DNA of 64,000 bases from Nitrosomonas sp. Nm132 (GCF_900100485.1 NZ_FNDH01000012.1:1-64000), one strand, 5' to 3'. Positions 51,923 to 58,803 are shown, counted from the stretch's first letter. The notes: generated from the sequence alone by a model not told the origin. Numbers and translations: made by a program.

Positions 51923-53221
51923 TTAAAAGGTTATCGGTACTCTGAAGGTAAGGGTTGCATCTTGTGCATTGTCGGTCGCACCGATACCGATGGACAAATT
52001 AAAGTTGGTTCGCTGGGAATATCTGAATGCATAACCCAGTAATACTTGTCCAATATCCAGCGCGGAACCGCTGATTTTATCGCCATTTACCCGGGTATTA
52101 AAGAAATGTCTATGAGAGTATCCCAAGTTAAAGGATGATCGTTCATTAATGTTAAATCCCATACCAAAAGTCATCCCTACTGCGTCGCCCGGATCGACCT
52201 TACCTGCATTCCCATCAGTCTCCAGGGTGTAGGTATATTGGAGATTGCTGAAGAATACCGCTGGATCGGTTGGATAAAGCGCGGTAACGCTTGGTTGAAA
52301 GCTAAAAAAACCTGATCCTGTTGGGGCTTCTGTTGGGAATACAGCGCCGGGGACTTCTTGTGATTCAACAAATTTGATATCAAAGGGACTTGTTCCTGTG
52401 GGTATCGTTGTGACCATATTACCCACCAAAATAGGCCAGCCACTCGAGCCATCGGTAAGCTGGTAACGGGCTGTCAGCTCAACATCACCGATATTATTTC
52501 CGGTTGCGTTGAACGTTTCATTAATGCTGGAACCGATACTAACAGGGCGGGAACGCTGGATATCAGCACGATATACATAAGGAACCCTGGCTTCCAGTTC
52601 CAGACGACTAGTCGCCCCATAGCGTAGTCCAAGGCTGGCAAAAAGACTGTGCCGGGTAATGTCGCGAATATCGATGAGACCGACCGCAATGGCCGGTATA
52701 AAAGTAAAAGCATCCAGAAATACGCGATTGTTATCGGAATAAGAATATGCCAGGGCCGGTTCAATAATAATGTTGCCTTTTTTGGTTAAAACACCTCCTA
52801 CCGTTTCACTCAGCCTGGGCATCTCTGGAGGCCGTGCTGGTTCTTTCGATACAGGGGGGGCTTGACCGACTGGCCCCGAGGGTATTTGATTCGGTAATGC
52901 TTTGGGTGTGTCTTCTTTTTGCTTCGCTATAGCACTGGTTTGGGCTGATGGCTTTGACTGATCCGATGGGGGAGGGGATTGTTTGGATAGCGCATCCAGG
53001 TGTTTTTTTAAGCGCTCCAGTTCCTTGCCTTGCTCTTCAAGTAATTGACGCTGTCTTTCAAATTTCTTTTCCTGCTCAGCAAGAAGTTGTCGGTAGTGCG
53101 CTAATGAATCCTCGGACTTGCTTGTTTCGGCGTAGCTGCCATTTATGAAAAAAAGACACATGATAAAAATAAAGCATCTGATGATTCCATTCAAAAAATA
53201 AAGCTCGTGTTTTTTTTTCAT
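51923..53221 (-). CDS. FapF-like coiled-coil and beta-barrel outer-membrane protein
   Basis: The 432-residue precursor has a signal peptide (to about residue 31), a coiled coil at about 35-82 (LLAEQEKKFERQRQLLEEQG), a Pro/Ser/Lys-rich linker (83-135) and a C-terminal beta domain from about 145 to 432 ending TLTFRVPITF, with a terminal Phe. This is the plan of FapF, the outer-membrane pore that exports functional amyloid in Pseudomonas: N-terminal coiled coil, linker and 12-stranded barrel. It is the last gene of the minus-strand cluster starting at 56353 and is separated from it by a MITE-like element. The FapF call rests on architecture and synteny. Confidence 0.65.
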   Translation of the reverse strand: MKKKHELYFLNGIIRCFIFIMCLFFINGSYAETSKSEDSLAHYRQLLAEQEKKFERQRQLLEEQGKELERLKKHLDALSKQSPPPSDQSKPSAQTSAIAKQKEDTPKALPNQIPSGPVGQAPPVSKEPARPPEMPRLSETVGGVLTKKGNIIIEPALAYSYSDNNRVFLDAFTFIPAIAVGLIDIRDITRHSLFASLGLRYGATSRLELEARVPYVYRADIQRSRPVSIGSSINETFNATGNNIGDVELTARYQLTDGSSGWPILVGNMVTTIPTGTSPFDIKFVESQEVPGAVFPTEAPTGSGFFSFQPSVTALYPTDPAVFFSNLQYTYTLETDGNAGKVDPGDAVGMTFGMGFNINERSSFNLGYSHRHFFNTRVNGDKISGSALDIGQVLLGYAFRYSQRTNFNLSIGIGATDNAQDATLTFRVPITF

Positions 53222-53416
53222 TTTTGATTAAGTTGACAGCACTTCTTGCATATAAGGTGAGTTGCATTATAAAGCCCGATGAGAACGCTGTAACTAGGAA
53301 AAAAGGGATATTAGGGCAAGTTCTGCTCTGTATTTTGAGGAGGGGCATGCTTATAATGAAAGTTTTTTGCTATGCATGTAGCTTGCTGGGAAGATTTTGT
53401 ATCCGGTTGAGGCATC

Positions 53417-53584
53417 TAACCCGAATATTTCATAAATTGGCGCGTGTCCTCACTTGCCTTCTGATTAATAAGAAAGATTTTGCTCAGTCGAGTGTATGAA
53501 TTACTACCCCCCTCTTTCTCAAAACTTCCCTATTAATCAAAATCCTGCGTGATCATCACGCGAATTTATGAAATATTCGGGCTA
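53417..53584. repeat. 168-bp MITE-like element in the Fap-like cluster
   Basis: The left end TAACCCGAATATTTCATAAA continues to 53446; the right end, read in reverse from 53584, is identical over 22 bases but for one, and CGCGTG follows on both sides after a small gap. The ends begin with TA, as in elements that target TA. The interior holds no gene. Other parts of the 377-bp gap have nothing recognised. Confidence 0.7.
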
Positions 53585-53598
53585 ACACCCTAAAATTA

Positions 53599-54096
53599 TT
53601 AATGCAAAACGGGTAAAATCATATTCATGCCGCCATGACCATGGCTATGATGTAATCCAATATTCTGCAGATTGCCGATCTCAATGTTAATTTCATTGAT
53701 AGTCTTGATTACTTGATCATCTAAATTATTTTGGATCACATTGCCCAAACCCGAGACAGCTAGATCAGACGCCATGTTGTGGCTGCCATTCTGCAGCAGC
53801 AAGCCATTTTCGGGAAATTGCAAGAAGGAAGAAAAAGTTTCGACGCCGTTCAAGGAAATAATTCTTTCAAAGCTGAAATCTATCGTTACTCCATTGGGGA
53901 GCATAAATCCGCCTCTTTGTTGCGCTAATTCACCGTCAGTCGCCCGGGGCCAGTTATCATAGGCATCAATTGAGACAGATCTGACTGATGATTCATCTGC
54001 CGATGCCTGGCAGGCAATGGTTAGGCATACAACAGTGATGAATAGAGATAAGGTCTTGGAGTTTTTCGGGGGAATGTCTAATTTATAAGTGCTCAT
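53599..54096 (-). CDS. Small exported protein of the Fap-like cluster (FapE position)
   Basis: I prefer the ATG at 54096, which has AGGA at good spacing, over 54105; this gives 165 residues. A long signal sequence ends near QASA (residue 33). The motif GELAQQRGGF follows at 55-64, giving E-L-x4-G-G, the pattern of double-glycine leaders cut by C39 peptidases. The mature part has FMLPNGVTIDFSFERIISLNG, a likely beta region, and a His/Gly-rich end (HHSHGHGGMNM). It occupies the position of FapE, between the C39 peptidase and FapF. Function inferred from context. Confidence 0.6.
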   Translation of the reverse strand: MSTYKLDIPPKNSKTLSLFITVVCLTIACQASADESSVRSVSIDAYDNWPRATDGELAQQRGGFMLPNGVTIDFSFERIISLNGVETFSSFLQFPENGLLLQNGSHNMASDLAVSGLGNVIQNNLDDQVIKTINEINIEIGNLQNIGLHHSHGHGGMNMILPVLH

Positions 54097-54116
54097 ATTT
54101 AACATCCTGCAATAAA

Positions 54117-54824
54117 TTAGAAATCAAAAGGACCAGGCACTTGCCCGCGTATTAAAACATGATATTCAGCCAAACTGCTTCGATCAATGGCATCCCCCAG
54201 TGGCGCCAGGCGAGCGGCCCATTCCTTCTGACTCTGGAAATTTCCCGTACCGATGCTTTCATCCGCATGGATTAAAAACAGGATACGTTTTTCCCACATT
54301 GCTTCAAATTCGTCGCGCGGTACAATATGGACGCCTTTAGCTGGATCGCCCACCAGGACACGCTGTGCAGTAATGCCTTTGATAATCACGAAATGTAAAT
54401 AGCCATTTGCGTTGATAATGGTAATGGCGGGACTGTTAGCGGCCACGAGCTGATCTAAATTAATCTTGAACCCATCGGACCGGTAGCCTCGTCGTTGCAG
54501 ATAGTTTTTCATATCCAGTAAGGAAAAACCCAGCTTCTTGATCTTTTCCTGCTCGCCATGTTGAAACATCTCCGTGAATACACTTTGCTCATTCACGCCG
54601 TCGCCATAATGAAAAGTAAGCAAACTCGCTAATGCCGCCGAACCGCAACTAAAATCATACTGTTGTTTATAAACAGTACTAAACTTCATTTCCGCGAAAC
54701 TCTTTACTGAGACATTGTAGTTTCCTCCGCCTGCGATGCCATTCAGGTCAAGGGAGCTGGCGCCAGCAGTGCTGCAAAATGCAGACAGGAGGAACGCAAC
54801 GCAGCGAGCAAAGAGAGGTTTCAT
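54117..54824 (-). CDS. FapD-like C39-family cysteine peptidase
   Basis: The 235-residue precursor has a signal peptide (to about A22) and a C39-type peptidase domain. The catalytic Cys is C60 in QQYDFSCGSAALASLL, His is H144 in GYLHFVIIKG, and the third residue is D160 in VGDPAKGVH. This combination is the signature of bacteriocin-processing-type C39 enzymes, here exported and without an ABC transporter. FapD of Pseudomonas is such a protein. It is flanked by two small exported proteins with a possible processing motif. Start and stop distances (20 bp and 42 bp) fit an operon. Confidence 0.85.
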   Translation of the reverse strand: MKPLFARCVAFLLSAFCSTAGASSLDLNGIAGGGNYNVSVKSFAEMKFSTVYKQQYDFSCGSAALASLLTFHYGDGVNEQSVFTEMFQHGEQEKIKKLGFSLLDMKNYLQRRGYRSDGFKINLDQLVAANSPAITIINANGYLHFVIIKGITAQRVLVGDPAKGVHIVPRDEFEAMWEKRILFLIHADESIGTGNFQSQKEWAARLAPLGDAIDRSSLAEYHVLIRGQVPGPFDF

Positions 54825-54866
54825 ATCAGAATTGAATAGTTGAATGAGTATATTAAAATATCGGCA

Positions 54867-55229
54867 TTAGGGCACAATAGTTACATTCACAATAGTGGAG
54901 TCCTGAATAATCACGTTATTGCCGCTATTTTGAATCACGGAAAACATGCCGCCAGAACCCGCAAATGCGCCGTGGTCAATAATATTCGTTCCAGTGACGC
55001 TATTGTTTGCTACATTACCCGTTAAGGTGGCTTGCACATTCATGTTATTTATCGCGGTGATATCGATGCCTTCACGGCCTCGTGCGTTTTCAAGATCATT
55101 ATCGGGTACAGCTTCAGCTAATGAAAAAGGTAATGCATCATCAGATTGGCTGGAAGATGCCTTGGCAGTATGGATAGACAATGTCAAGACAAACAGAAGA
55201 AGCAGGCTGCTTTTTATAAATGAAACCAT
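54867..55229 (-). CDS. Small exported protein of the Fap-like cluster
   Basis: The 120-residue precursor has a signal peptide (to about A24). The segment DNDLENARGREGIDI (43-57) has D-L-x3-R-G, similar to the motif in the 53599 gene. The mature C-terminal part is Asn/Val/Ile-rich with likely beta strands: VQATLTGNVANNSVTGTNII, SVIQNSGNNVIIQD and STIVNVTIVP. Such strand-forming Asn-rich repeats recall the amyloid-prone repeats of Fap proteins. It could be a minor fibre subunit (FapB-like) or nucleator. No family was recognised by eye. Confidence 0.6.
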   Translation of the reverse strand: MVSFIKSSLLLLFVLTLSIHTAKASSSQSDDALPFSLAEAVPDNDLENARGREGIDITAINNMNVQATLTGNVANNSVTGTNIIDHGAFAGSGGMFSVIQNSGNNVIIQDSTIVNVTIVP

Positions 55230-55339
55230 CTTAATAACCCCCTTCGTTCATTTTTTTCCCAGGATGCCGGCGACGGAAGCGGTTCACCGGCATCCTTTCT
55301 CTCACTAAAGCGCTGTAATGCTGCTTACAACGTTAGTTA

Positions 55340-56353
55340 TTAAGGGTTGACATTCACGTTGCCTTGGAAAGACACTTGCTGTTGTGCCAAGGCATTGGCG
55401 CCGTGATTCTGAACGGCTTGGTTGATGCCTGCAGCACCATTGAAGGCATTGTCGATGTTATTGCTGGCGGTGTAAGTACTAGCGCCGCTGTCATCTGGAT
55501 TACCCAATGCAATGGAGACTCCCGCACCGGTAACCGTACCTTCCAGTGCTGAATTATTGACCGAGTAGGTGGCGGTTGCATTGCCATGATTGGAGGCTGC
55601 CGTTCCTGAGCCACTCGCAGTCGTGGCGCTGTGATCGCTGCTATCGCTGTAATTGGAGGTTGCAGTGCCGCCGTTGGCAGCGGCCGATCCTGTGCCATTT
55701 GCGGTCGTGGTGCTGTTATCGCTGTTGTTGGTGTTATCAGTCGATGCAGTGGCAGTGCCGCCATTATTAGCCGCTGCTGAACCTTGCGCGCTGGCGTCTG
55801 CGAGGCTGTTATCGCTGTTGTCGCTATTGTCGCTATTGTCGCTGTTGTCTACCGATGCAGTGCTGGCGCCGTTAGCCGCTGCTGAGCCTTGTGCGCTAGC
55901 GCTTGCGGAGCTGTTATCATTGCCGCTATCGGCAGTGTTGTTGCTGTCGTTGGTAGAGCTGTTGGGATTGTTGCTATCGGCAGTATTGTTGCTGTTGTTG
56001 ACAGAGCTGTCGGGATTCTGGCTATCGTTAGTAGAATTGTTAGCGCTGTTATCGGAGTTGTTAGAGTTGTCCGAGTGATTAGAGTTATCGGAGTTATTGG
56101 AGTTATCCGAGTTATTGGAGCTATCGCTTGCAGTTGCATACTCATTCGCGATCGTGCCCGGACCGGTTTGACCATTATTGGCAGTAGCGGTTTTATTCAC
56201 ATTGTTATCTATGGCCGTTGAGCCACTATTATCTGCGCTACCGGAAGGATTGGTATCTCCCTCAGTGATACTTGGATTGGCCAAAGCATTACCTGCTACC
56301 CCAAAAGCAAACACGATGCTTGCAGCGATAATTTTTTTGCTGAATTGATTCAT
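55340..56353 (-). CDS. Asn/Ser/Asp-rich repeat protein, candidate amyloid subunit
   Basis: The 337-residue precursor has a signal peptide ending at A25. Residues 78-148 are an Asn/Ser/Asp tract of NSDNS-type units. Residues 152-268 hold four imperfect repeats sharing a GSAAANGG-TA core (starting near 152, 187, 218 and 246) with Ser/Thr/Asn tails. The C-terminal 70 residues have NNIDNAFNGAAGINQAVQNH and ANALAQQQVSF, which resemble FapC/FapB repeat wording. No Cys, Trp and few charged residues except Asp. It is the first gene of the minus-strand cluster. Proposed to be the fibre subunit; function not proven. Confidence 0.7.
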   Translation of the reverse strand: MNQFSKKIIAASIVFAFGVAGNALANPSITEGDTNPSGSADNSGSTAIDNNVNKTATANNGQTGPGTIANEYATASDSSNNSDNSNNSDNSNHSDNSNNSDNSANNSTNDSQNPDSSVNNSNNTADSNNPNSSTNDSNNTADSGNDNSSASASAQGSAAANGASTASVDNSDNSDNSDNSDNSLADASAQGSAAANNGGTATASTDNTNNSDNSTTTANGTGSAAANGGTATSNYSDSSDHSATTASGSGTAASNHGNATATYSVNNSALEGTVTGAGVSIALGNPDDSGASTYTASNNIDNAFNGAAGINQAVQNHGANALAQQQVSFQGNVNVNP

Positions 56354-56482
56354 TTTAGTTCTCCTTGATAAAAGTTGACTAATCCTGATTTCACCACACT
56401 AAAACGAATGTTTAAGTTAGGTGTCTCATATTCTCATGGGGCGCATGAAATAAAGGAATAAGCAAAGGCTCTAATTTTATAT

Positions 56483-56495
56483 AGGGAAATTCTTT
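56483..56495. promoter_or_regulatory. Near-copy of the 13-bp palindrome, amyloid promoter region
   Basis: AGGGAAATTCTTT matches AAGGAAATTCCTT at 11 of 13 positions and lies 130 bp before the start of the repeat protein. Candidate site for the nearby response regulator. The 266-bp intergenic region has no gene. Confidence 0.3.
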
Positions 56496-56620
56496 AAAAA
56501 TGAATTGAAAGCACTTATTTCAGTCGCGAACGAACTGATGCTTTTCTATTTTCGACGGTAATAAGAAAAATGCGCTAACTGGCTGCAACCTGAGGTTGCG
56601 AGACGTTGTAGAACAAAGTG

Positions 56621-57277
56621 TTACGCGTGAATAACCTTACAGCTGATGGCGAGGCGAACAAGCTGAGAGGTGTTCTGCAATTTTAACTTCTTCATGATAC
56701 TTGCCTGATGGACACCAACAGTTTTAGGGCTGATAGAAATCATTTCCGCAATTTGCGCCACTGAGTTCCCTTCTGCTAACAGTTTGAATAACTGAAATTC
56801 ACGCTTGGAAAGAACATGCAAAGGATTCTCGGAGGATTTTCCGAGCACTTTGTCGGTCAGTAAATTTGAAGCCAATTCCGGATCGATATAGACGCGACCC
56901 TGGCTCACCTGGCGGACTGCTTTTAGCAATTGCTCAAGGTTGCTTTGCTTGGTGATATAGCCTGTTGCACCCATCTTTAACGCGCGTTGGACCATGATTT
57001 CATTGCTGTGCATGCTGAATACCAGAATATTGGCGGCTGGATTTTTTGTTTTGATGCGATGAATGGTTTCCAGGCCATCTATACCCTGCTTGTCCAGATT
57101 TAGATCAATAATGGTCACATCGGGCGTATATTCTTGATAAAGGCTGCAGCCGGCTTCTCCATTATCGGTATCGGCTAAGACATGAATATCCGAGGTGCTT
57201 TCAAGTAGACGACGATATCCATTGCGCACGACTGGATGGTCATCGATGAGTAGCACCGTAATTGGCTTTTCTCTCAC
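56621..57277 (-). CDS. NarL/FixJ-family response regulator
   Basis: The 218-residue regulator has a receiver domain with the acidic pair D12-D13 and the phosphorylation site D58 in VTIIDLNLD; a threonine-like residue in FSMHSN and the Lys in ITKQSN complete the pocket. A LuxR-type helix-turn-helix lies at about 150-205, with LSKREFQLFKLLAEGNSVAQ and ISPKTVGVHQASIMKKL. The gene is 267 bp upstream of the repeat protein in the same direction and 230 bp downstream of the sensor kinase. It likely controls the Fap-like genes. Confidence 0.92.
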   Translation of the reverse strand: MREKPITVLLIDDHPVVRNGYRRLLESTSDIHVLADTDNGEAGCSLYQEYTPDVTIIDLNLDKQGIDGLETIHRIKTKNPAANILVFSMHSNEIMVQRALKMGATGYITKQSNLEQLLKAVRQVSQGRVYIDPELASNLLTDKVLGKSSENPLHVLSKREFQLFKLLAEGNSVAQIAEMISISPKTVGVHQASIMKKLKLQNTSQLVRLAISCKVIHA

Positions 57278-57458
57278 AATTCGAACCCTCCTGCTGTTTC
57301 AGTGAGAACTAACGCGAATTTTAAACAGCATTCACTGCTGGGCTTGATTAAGCAGACCCACTGTACTTCTCATTGCGAGTGCTCTTGTTTGGATAATTTG
57401 AATATATTTTGGGGCATTGGGCGCAGTTATAGAATAAGGGTAGAGCTTATTTTTATCT

Positions 57459-57471
57459 AAGGAAATTCCTT
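57459..57471. promoter_or_regulatory. 13-bp palindrome upstream of the response regulator
   Basis: AAGGAAATTCCTT, identical to the copy upstream of hsp20 (22219-22231), is 182 bp before the regulator start. It might be an autoregulatory operator. Confidence 0.4.
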
Positions 57472-57481
57472 AATTACACAA

Positions 57482-57510
57482 TAACCCGAATTTATGAAAT
57501 ATTCGGGTTA
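57482..57510 (-). repeat. Solo copy of the CCCGAATATTTCATAAATT repeat
   Basis: Arms TAACCCGAAT and ATTCGGGTTA around TTATGAAAT. The repeat overlaps the stop codon of the histidine kinase gene (57508-57510), a tight 3'-end placement shared with the copies near 42601 and 53584. Confidence 0.75.
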
Positions 57511-58719
57511 AAGGTTATCAGTTTTTCTCCTTCTGTTTGAGGAGTCGAGCGGCAGTTTGACGTGAATTTGTGTTCCATGATTTGGAGTGCTACGCACAGA
57601 AAATTTGCCACCTGAAGCGATGGCTCGTTCACGTATTCCCAGCAGTCCCAGTCCTGTGGGTATTTGATTGACATTGTAACCCTTGCCGTTGTCTTTCACG
57701 CTTAGCGACAAAATATCATCTGCGGCGGTTGTGCCAGTTTTACGATTCAAGCGGATGAGAACTCGGGTAGCCTGGGCATGATTGCGGACATTGTTGAGGG
57801 CCTCCTGAACAATGCGAAATATGGTGATATTGGTATGTTCATTGAGTTTGTCCAAGGTGCCTTCGAATTTGAGTTTAAGAATAATATGGGGGTTGTGTGT
57901 AATCCACTGTTCTCTTAATTCAAGTAGAGCATCTTCGAGCCCAAGCGTGTCTAATAGAGTAGGGCGTAATTGGCGCAGCATATCGTGCATTACTTCATGC
58001 ATTTTTTTTACGCATCGTTTAATGGCTTGAGCGCTGGTATAGATGGTGGAATCTTGATCGGAGAAATAGGCAATCGTTTCTGTTTCCGCGTGAATGGCGG
58101 TAAGCCATTGGCCTAATTCATCATGCAGTTCTCGCGCAAGAAAGCGTCGTTCTTCTTCCTGCATTTTGAACAGATTCTGCATCAGTCGACGGCTTCCATC
58201 CAGCAACTCTTGGTCGAGATGCCGCTTTTCTTTAACAAGGTTAATGTTGGTCATTACCGTGCGGCAGGTGTCAGTATCTTTTGCGACTAAACTTTCCAGG
58301 CGTATGTGGATTACCTTATTGAGGGCTCCTTTGATTCTTAGCTCGGTGACGACGTTATGGGAAGAGTTAAAAGTTTTCTGCAGATGGCTAAGGAATCTGT
58401 GATTGTCATCGTGAACAATGTAGCTTAAGAAAGATTTGTTCAAAATGGAGGCGCGCTTCTTGCCGAGCAGGATAGATGATCCGGTCAGGTTGATTGCCAG
58501 AATATTCCCGGCTTTATCCAGTGTAAGATAACCTACAGGGGCATTATCGTAGAGATCGGCATAGCGGCTGCGCATTGCTTCCAATTGTTGTTGCATATCC
58601 TTAAACTTACAGTTCTGGATCTCTAATTCCGTCTGATGTGCTTGCAGTTCGGTGAGGAGCGCTATCTTGCTGTAAACTTCGCTGTCATCAGTTTTCATGG
58701 AATCATGCTTTTCATTCAT
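57508..58719 (-). CDS. PAS-domain sensor histidine kinase (NarX/NreB type)
   Basis: The 403-residue kinase has no membrane segment. A PAS domain lies at about 50-165 (ADLYDNAPVGYLTLDKAGNI). The HisKA_3 domain follows: ERRFLARELHDELGQWLTAI, with the phosphorylated His at H199. The C-terminal ATPase has VQEALNNVRNHAQA (N box), VKDNGKGYN and GLGLLGIRERA (G boxes). It is the natural partner of the downstream NarL-type regulator. Signal: PAS with no obvious heme or metal motif, so unknown. Its message begins after a 39-bp tandem duplication. Confidence 0.92.
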   Translation of the reverse strand: MNEKHDSMKTDDSEVYSKIALLTELQAHQTELEIQNCKFKDMQQQLEAMRSRYADLYDNAPVGYLTLDKAGNILAINLTGSSILLGKKRASILNKSFLSYIVHDDNHRFLSHLQKTFNSSHNVVTELRIKGALNKVIHIRLESLVAKDTDTCRTVMTNINLVKEKRHLDQELLDGSRRLMQNLFKMQEEERRFLARELHDELGQWLTAIHAETETIAYFSDQDSTIYTSAQAIKRCVKKMHEVMHDMLRQLRPTLLDTLGLEDALLELREQWITHNPHIILKLKFEGTLDKLNEHTNITIFRIVQEALNNVRNHAQATRVLIRLNRKTGTTAADDILSLSVKDNGKGYNVNQIPTGLGLLGIRERAIASGGKFSVRSTPNHGTQIHVKLPLDSSNRRRKTDNL

Positions 58720-58721
58720 GC

Positions 58722-58803
58722 TATCTCCCTTGCCATAATAGCAAAAGCGATTAGATTATCCGTTTATCTCCCTTTCCATAATAGCAAAAGCGATTAGATT
58801 ATC
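58722..58803. repeat. 39-bp direct tandem duplication before the sensor kinase
   Basis: The segment 58722-58760 and the segment 58765-58803 are identical except at one base; the unit includes the TATCTCCCT that forms the kinase ribosome-binding site on the minus strand. A recent duplication of the 5' leader is likely. Confidence 0.85.

Follow-up and report, generated by a model that had tools for sequence, protein, structure and literature searches.

An initial annotation of a window of 64,000 nucleotides from Nitrosomonas sp. Nm132 (NZ_FNDH01000012.1:1-64000), the whole stretch of DNA that we analysed, had proposed that a locus at 51923-58719 encodes a Fap-like functional amyloid secretion system with its own two-component regulators. 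All seven genes described there were verified, both in their coordinates and in their location on the minus strand (Table 1). A sensor kinase and a response regulator are followed by a repeat protein, a small secreted protein (B_like), a C39 peptidase, a second small protein (E_like) and a barrel protein, and the order subunits-FapD-FapE-FapF of Fap operons is thereby present at the locus; FapA, which is missing here, is commonly absent from Fap operons (PMC3792158). The order repeat protein-B_like-C39-E_like-FapF recurred in all nine of the nine same-genus genomes with a full-length FapF homologue, the synteny check that had been proposed with the annotation, and because order and gene set are conserved across genomes, this arrangement is beyond chance. 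No Pfam family above cut-off was found for the repeat protein, B_like, E_like or the barrel protein; Rfam and tRNA scans gave no match, and a scan for sigma-70 promoters and terminators gave counts no higher than chance.

Table 1. Features of the locus, in window coordinates
Feature	Position	Strand	Evidence
Sensor histidine kinase, cytosolic, PAS, HisKA_3/NarX-UhpB type	57508-58719	-	Pfam PAS 8e-7, HisKA_3 5e-11, HATPase_c 1e-13
Response regulator, NarL/GacA type	56621-57277	-	Response_reg 3e-27, GerE 5e-18; clade of fap-site regulators
Secreted N/S/D-rich repeat protein, predicted major subunit	55340-56353	-	Composition, tandem arrays, homologues in same position
C-terminal cassette of repeat protein (SNNIDNAFNGAAGINQAVQNHGANALAQQQVSFQGNVNVNP), predicted fibre core	55343-55465	-	Profile match to B_like
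B_like, small secreted protein (~120 aa), predicted minor subunit or nucleator	54867-55229	-	Conserved family, same operon position
B_like leader motif L-E-N-A-R-G-R, predicted C39 cut site	55074-55094	-	L-x-x-x-R-G-G/R conserved in family
C39 peptidase, stand-alone, exported, FapD-like (Cys60, His144, Asp160)	54117-54824	-	PF03412 6e-19
E_like, small protein, short FapE relative	53599-54105	-	Profile match to canonical FapE; alignment of 26 relatives
E_like leader motif L-A-Q-Q-R-G-G, predicted C39 cut site	53908-53928	-	Conservation in 26 sequences
FapF-like outer-membrane transporter: coiled coil 38-79, linker, barrel about 151-432, PTG motifs	51923-53221	-	NF058560, PDB FapF, fold search

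The barrel protein matched the NCBIfam FapF model NF058560 over its whole length (residues 20-432) with an E value of 2e-40, and it matched the FapF crystal-structure sequences in the PDB with an E value of 1e-24. Its score with the model was 138.9 bits relative to a strict equivalog cut-off of 700 bits; because this score and those of the C39 protein were under such cut-offs, we call both proteins relatives only, and on its sequence the barrel is a divergent member of the family, a relative of FapF and not FapF in the narrow sense. An AlphaFold model built from 41 aligned relatives had a mean pLDDT of 79, with values above 90 for most barrel strands, and when it was used in a fold search the best PDB matches were all 18 FapF chains (best E 4.9e-21, target TM 0.82), the next match after them being a COG4313 channel. 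The coiled-coil helix, the linker and both PTG motifs were present, giving, in divergent form, the features of a FapF outer-membrane transporter with a periplasmic coiled coil. Both checks suggested for this gene, the profile search and the structure prediction, thus pointed to FapF, and the possibility of an unrelated porin was ruled out by the profile, crystal-sequence and fold matches.

The C39 protein is a stand-alone protein of 235 residues with a Sec-type start. The profile search suggested for it gave an E value of 2.4e-36 with the NCBIfam FapD model and 3.5e-37 with that of Acinetobacter FilB, both under the equivalog cut-off. The predicted catalytic residues Cys60, His144 and Asp160 are kept, and the protein aligns to the C39 domains of solved peptidase-transporters; it therefore has the character of FapD, an exported C39 peptidase with an active-site Cys. 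No ABC exporter was found among the cluster genes by the Pfam domains of their open reading frames (ORFs), so that the fused or adjoining C39-ABC arrangement of bacteriocin export is not present. The latter result and the relationship of the barrel to FapF ruled out a bacteriocin cluster, and neither of the findings that the annotation had named as fatal to its Fap reading, an unrelated porin and a bacteriocin-type ABC exporter, applied.

B_like matched no NCBIfam model, and E_like none of those for FapB, C, D, E and F. In profile-profile comparisons, for which the null was 100 column shuffles per pair, E_like matched the canonical FapE profile around the leader region with a score of 53.3 (null maximum 21.4), and it is by this comparison, not by the NCBIfam model, that we assign E_like, which is shorter than canonical FapE, as a FapE relative. 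B_like scored 55.1 with E_like and 37.4 with FapE (null maximum 21.6 for each), and FapE scored 29.2 with the FapB/C repeats (null maximum 16.9); the score of 24.0 between B_like and the Fap repeats was reached by 1 of 100 shuffles and is no more than suggestive. After the Sec-type signal both small proteins carry the sequence L-x-x-x-R-G-G, ending in G-R in the B_like of the window. In an alignment of 26 E_like sequences L60, R64 and G66 were invariant and G65 and F67 nearly so; moreover, the motif occurred in 78 of 117 B_like and E_like ORFs with a signal-like start, versus 7 of 874 other such ORFs in the same loci. Double-glycine leaders of bacteriocins have the layout L(-7), G(-2), G(-1), which the motif fits, and canonical FapE has in the same region mostly EL-x-x-[LM]-R-G-[RK]. 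In Pseudomonas, peptides covering the first ~70 residues were missing for FapE and for no other Fap protein, and FapC secretion was blocked when the active site of FapD was mutated (PMC5557850). From the sequences we infer that the leader motif is the C39 cut site of E_like and B_like. In the canonical Fap loci L093:14267-14581, L101:4364-4699 and L094:14749-15168 an extra small secreted gene lies upstream of the other fap genes; its leader, EL-x-x-[MIV]-[RS]-G, resembles that of B_like, and it had no NCBIfam match where tested (L093). The same genus also contains a different locus with a C39 peptidase and a FapF-like barrel, at L043:9225-13588 (genome G018) and L042:14565-17090 (genome G010), with a FapF match of only about 1e-9; the L043 small proteins with signal-like starts have leaders of the form LTDAQMDAATAG or LSETSMDNITAG, and these loci may hold exported C39 peptidases of a further family, whose substrates are exported by Sec.

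The repeat protein has 337 residues, a Sec-type start and a content of Asn, Ser and Asp (N/S/D) of 46%, which is the highest among the window's 41 long ORFs and exceeds the runner-up 2.5-fold, the other 40 having at most 19%; short DNA tandem arrays lie in its gene at 55805-56126. Homologues occupied the same operon position in nine same-genus genomes. A single C-terminal cassette is common to the repeat protein and B_like (45.3 against the B_like profile, null maximum 15.6), and it was retained in distant species despite wholly different N-terminal regions. The pattern G-[hydrophobic]-x3-[hydrophobic]-Q-x2-G-x(1,2)-N could be read by eye in B_like, in the repeat proteins, in FapE and, more loosely, in the Fap repeats. 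At L078:6593-7504 and L086:4758-5663 the cassette occurs several times in the presumed subunit (e.g., GEAFKDAAGISQVQQNNGSNSTMQQ), and these relatives are possible intermediates between single-cassette and multi-repeat subunits. The N/S/D-rich subunit gene is present in two tandem copies at L031:8024-10365 (genome G026) and L032:5536-8584 (genome G035); the window has one.

Among 369 genomes of the class, matches to the FapF model fell mostly into two groups, with E values below 1e-90 and of about 1e-36 to 1e-50, and weaker or partial matches were also seen; the FapF of the window is in the second group. In a tree the sequences of this group (62 of 62) fell into a single clade with support 0.84, next to canonical FapF, whose clade held 12 sequences and one other (support 0.99). 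Scanning of GTDB genomes yielded 496 relatives, of which the best 80 were taken for analysis of their loci; these 80 include Nitrosomonas europaea, eutropha, mobilis, aestuarii and halophila, Methylocaldum, Colwellia, Thiobacillus, Variovorax, Polaromonas, Rhodoferax and Aromatoleum, together with a small number of metagenome-assembled genomes that bear alpha- or deltaproteobacterial labels. C39, B_like, E_like and FapF occurred together in 48 of 49 loci longer than 15 kb from named genomes, mostly Beta- and Gammaproteobacteria and including N. europaea. In a 2013 survey of Fap the profiles for FapD and FapF had proved non-specific, and most of the FapF hits were classed as false positives (PMC3792158); part of the homologues set aside there may be operons of this branch. 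No paper on Fap in Nitrosomonas was found in a literature search limited to open-licence papers, outside which an earlier description is possible, and the operon of the window belongs to a widespread, apparently undescribed sister branch of Pseudomonas Fap.

We regard it as nearly certain that the locus is a Fap-type secretion operon, as had been proposed, on the basis of the FapF and FapD profile matches, the FapF fold and the short FapE relative. The best explanation of the locus as a whole, to which we give a probability of roughly 0.65, is an operon of a divergent, widespread Fap sister branch with an amyloid fibre mechanism; that the repeat protein yields an amyloid product is, judged by sequence, probable. 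We propose that Sec would export all the structural proteins, as their signal sequences suggest, and that the periplasmic FapD-like peptidase would then trim an N-terminal prosegment from E_like and B_like after L-x-x-x-R-G-G/R. Trimming of E_like would license secretion via FapF, a coiled-coil-gated outer-membrane barrel by homology and fold, whose role in transport we take over from Pseudomonas, and the repeat protein would exit unfolded. The matching cassette of B_like would nucleate and the single cassettes of the repeat protein would stack into a cross-beta fibre, presumably coated by the hydrophilic N/S/D region to give a hydrated adhesive matrix fibre.

Several results weigh against this explanation. 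The repeat protein did not match the NCBIfam FapB and FapC models, a hidden Markov model made from 30 canonical Fap repeats did not score it above shuffles, and in a direct profile comparison with the FapB/C repeats 2 of 100 shuffles reached its score. The conserved Fap repeats, typically three, of the major subunit FapC were not recognisable in it, nor were those of the minor subunit FapB safely recognisable in B_like, and a single cassette in place of three or more may not suffice to build a stable cross-beta core. The C39 protein is as near to FilB as to FapD; structure prediction for E_like was of low confidence and its fold search gave no match; and the R-h-x-x-h-E trimerisation motif described for FapF (PMC6173795) was sought in the barrel protein and not found. 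The annotation had called the subunit highly changed, and this was supported to the extent that FapB and FapC matches were missing here while a canonical Fap locus used as a control (L093) matched the FapB, C, D, E and F models; it is limited in that the subunit appears to be linked to the Fap repeats only transitively, through intermediate profiles. As the direct repeat search was not above shuffles we do not claim FapC homology for the repeat protein, and canonical Fap membership was rejected on the FapB and FapC tests, leaving the locus a Fap variant.

Pseudomonas Fap (fapABCDEF) shares with the window a FapF-type coiled-coil barrel, an exported C39 peptidase, a FapE relative with the same leader region and the order subunits-D-E-F. 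In contrast, the window has no FapA and no recognisable FapB or FapC, its subunit shows, where that of Pseudomonas has three repeats and linkers, a single C-terminal cassette and a long N/S/D region, it has the extra B_like with a leader of its own, and its FapF lies in a separate clade. The putative pilus system Fil of Acinetobacter (FilB/FilC), on which the search of open-licence papers found no paper, is matched by the C39 protein as well as FapD is; however, the barrel is far nearer to FapF (2e-40) than to FilC (4e-12), and we do not place the locus in Fil. Peptidase-containing ABC exporters such as PCAT and ComA agree with the window in the C39 fold and in the double-glycine type of leader that the presumed substrates carry, whereas the peptidase of the window is exported and stand-alone, the substrates have Sec-type signals and the cluster is without an ABC exporter. 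Curli (CsgA/B/G) are similar in working principle only, in that their secreted subunits contain Q/N and leave through an outer-membrane exit of their own; Csg homologues are absent here, CsgG and FapF are unrelated, and for the window a protease step is predicted.

The single cassette and the missing direct match to Fap repeats, along with the long polar low-complexity region, would also be expected if the Fap-type machinery secreted a non-amyloid product, an intrinsically disordered adhesin of the surface or matrix, rich in N/S/D, which would be anchored by its C-terminal cassette and form no cross-beta fibre. We consider this unlikely: a cassette common to B_like and the repeat protein and kept in distant species fits a fibre core, and some relatives have several cassettes (L078). 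The double-glycine-type leaders beside a C39 peptidase, and the fact that E_like weakly matched the profile of the bacteriocin EntV (E 0.016), could alternatively mean that the peptidase matures B_like and E_like as signalling or bacteriocin-like peptides, with the barrel as their exit and the repeat protein as an accessory; however, there is no ABC exporter, the peptidase is itself exported, the barrel is a relative of FapF and E_like one of FapE, and the core cassette of B_like is found also in the repeat protein, all of which makes this explanation very improbable.

The operons in N. europaea, eutropha, mobilis, aestuarii and halophila provide named candidate genes for the amyloid-like matrix of nitrifiers; aerobic granules rich in ammonia oxidisers contain amyloid-like glycoproteins of unknown identity (PMC6291783). 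The substrate of FapD was left open in 2017 (PMC5557850), and a 2025 review states merely that FapD is 'thought to' process FapE and FapF (PMC12822426); the leader motif conserved in E_like, canonical FapE and B_like predicts a cut site and so bears on this question. The single-cassette subunit offers a test of the minimum repeat number for a functional amyloid. We tentatively raise the broader idea, which we would not yet favour, that Fap-type amyloid systems include a second class, widespread and living mainly in Beta- and Gammaproteobacteria, with a single-cassette low-complexity subunit and two Sec-exported partners matured by C39 at double-glycine leaders; in nitrifiers this class would form the amyloid-like matrix of granules and be governed by a two-component system of its own.

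The sensor-regulator pair was surveyed in 37 same-genus genomes, nine of which had the operon and a full-length FapF homologue. Three genomes have the pair directly upstream of the operon, each with other outer flanks: that of the window, G026 (N. aestuarii Nm36) and G035. G019, where pair and operon are each at a contig end, is probably a fourth case, and five Nitrosomonas genomes have the operon without the pair. Regulators at fap or former fap sites formed one clade (support 1.0), apart from pairs at other places. A VpsR-like sigma-54 activator is frequent outside Nitrosomonas (48 of the best 80 loci); of 41 such loci tested, 16 had a good -24/-12 match and ten were significant relative to shuffles, many about 90-100 bases before the subunit gene, and no Nitrosomonas locus reached that score. 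Since a VpsR-type activator is usual elsewhere and several Nitrosomonas operons are without the pair, we regard the pair as a lineage-specific associate and not a general part of the system, probably a regulatory replacement. The claim that the system has its own two-component regulators thus held in that a regulator subfamily tracks the operon in part of the genus, but not beyond it, as the pair is absent from other operon-bearing Nitrosomonas, persists after operon loss and gives way to the VpsR-like activator elsewhere.

We lean towards control of the operon by the adjacent pair, going by gene linkage: in part of Nitrosomonas the PAS kinase, in which no transmembrane stretch was found, and the NarL-type regulator would probably set transcription in place of the VpsR-like activator. 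That the pair is a chance neighbour without such control seems less plausible, although related pairs occur elsewhere in many Nitrosomonas without fap, the 267-base gap between regulator and repeat gene (56354-56620) has no recognised site, and the pair persists in two genomes, G018 and G011, without an intact operon; against it stand the adjacency kept in three genomes, likely four, with different outer flanks, and the single clade of fap-site regulators. In G018 (L106:8612-12239) regulator, kinase and his genes are kept next to glpD, without glpK and without the operon, and in G011 the pair is kept by his genes and a broken FapF remnant lies by glpD (L012:124-363); in both the operon is lost at the window's own site. 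A 43-base tandem duplication (97% match) was seen at 58722-58803 of the window, immediately upstream of the start of the kinase.

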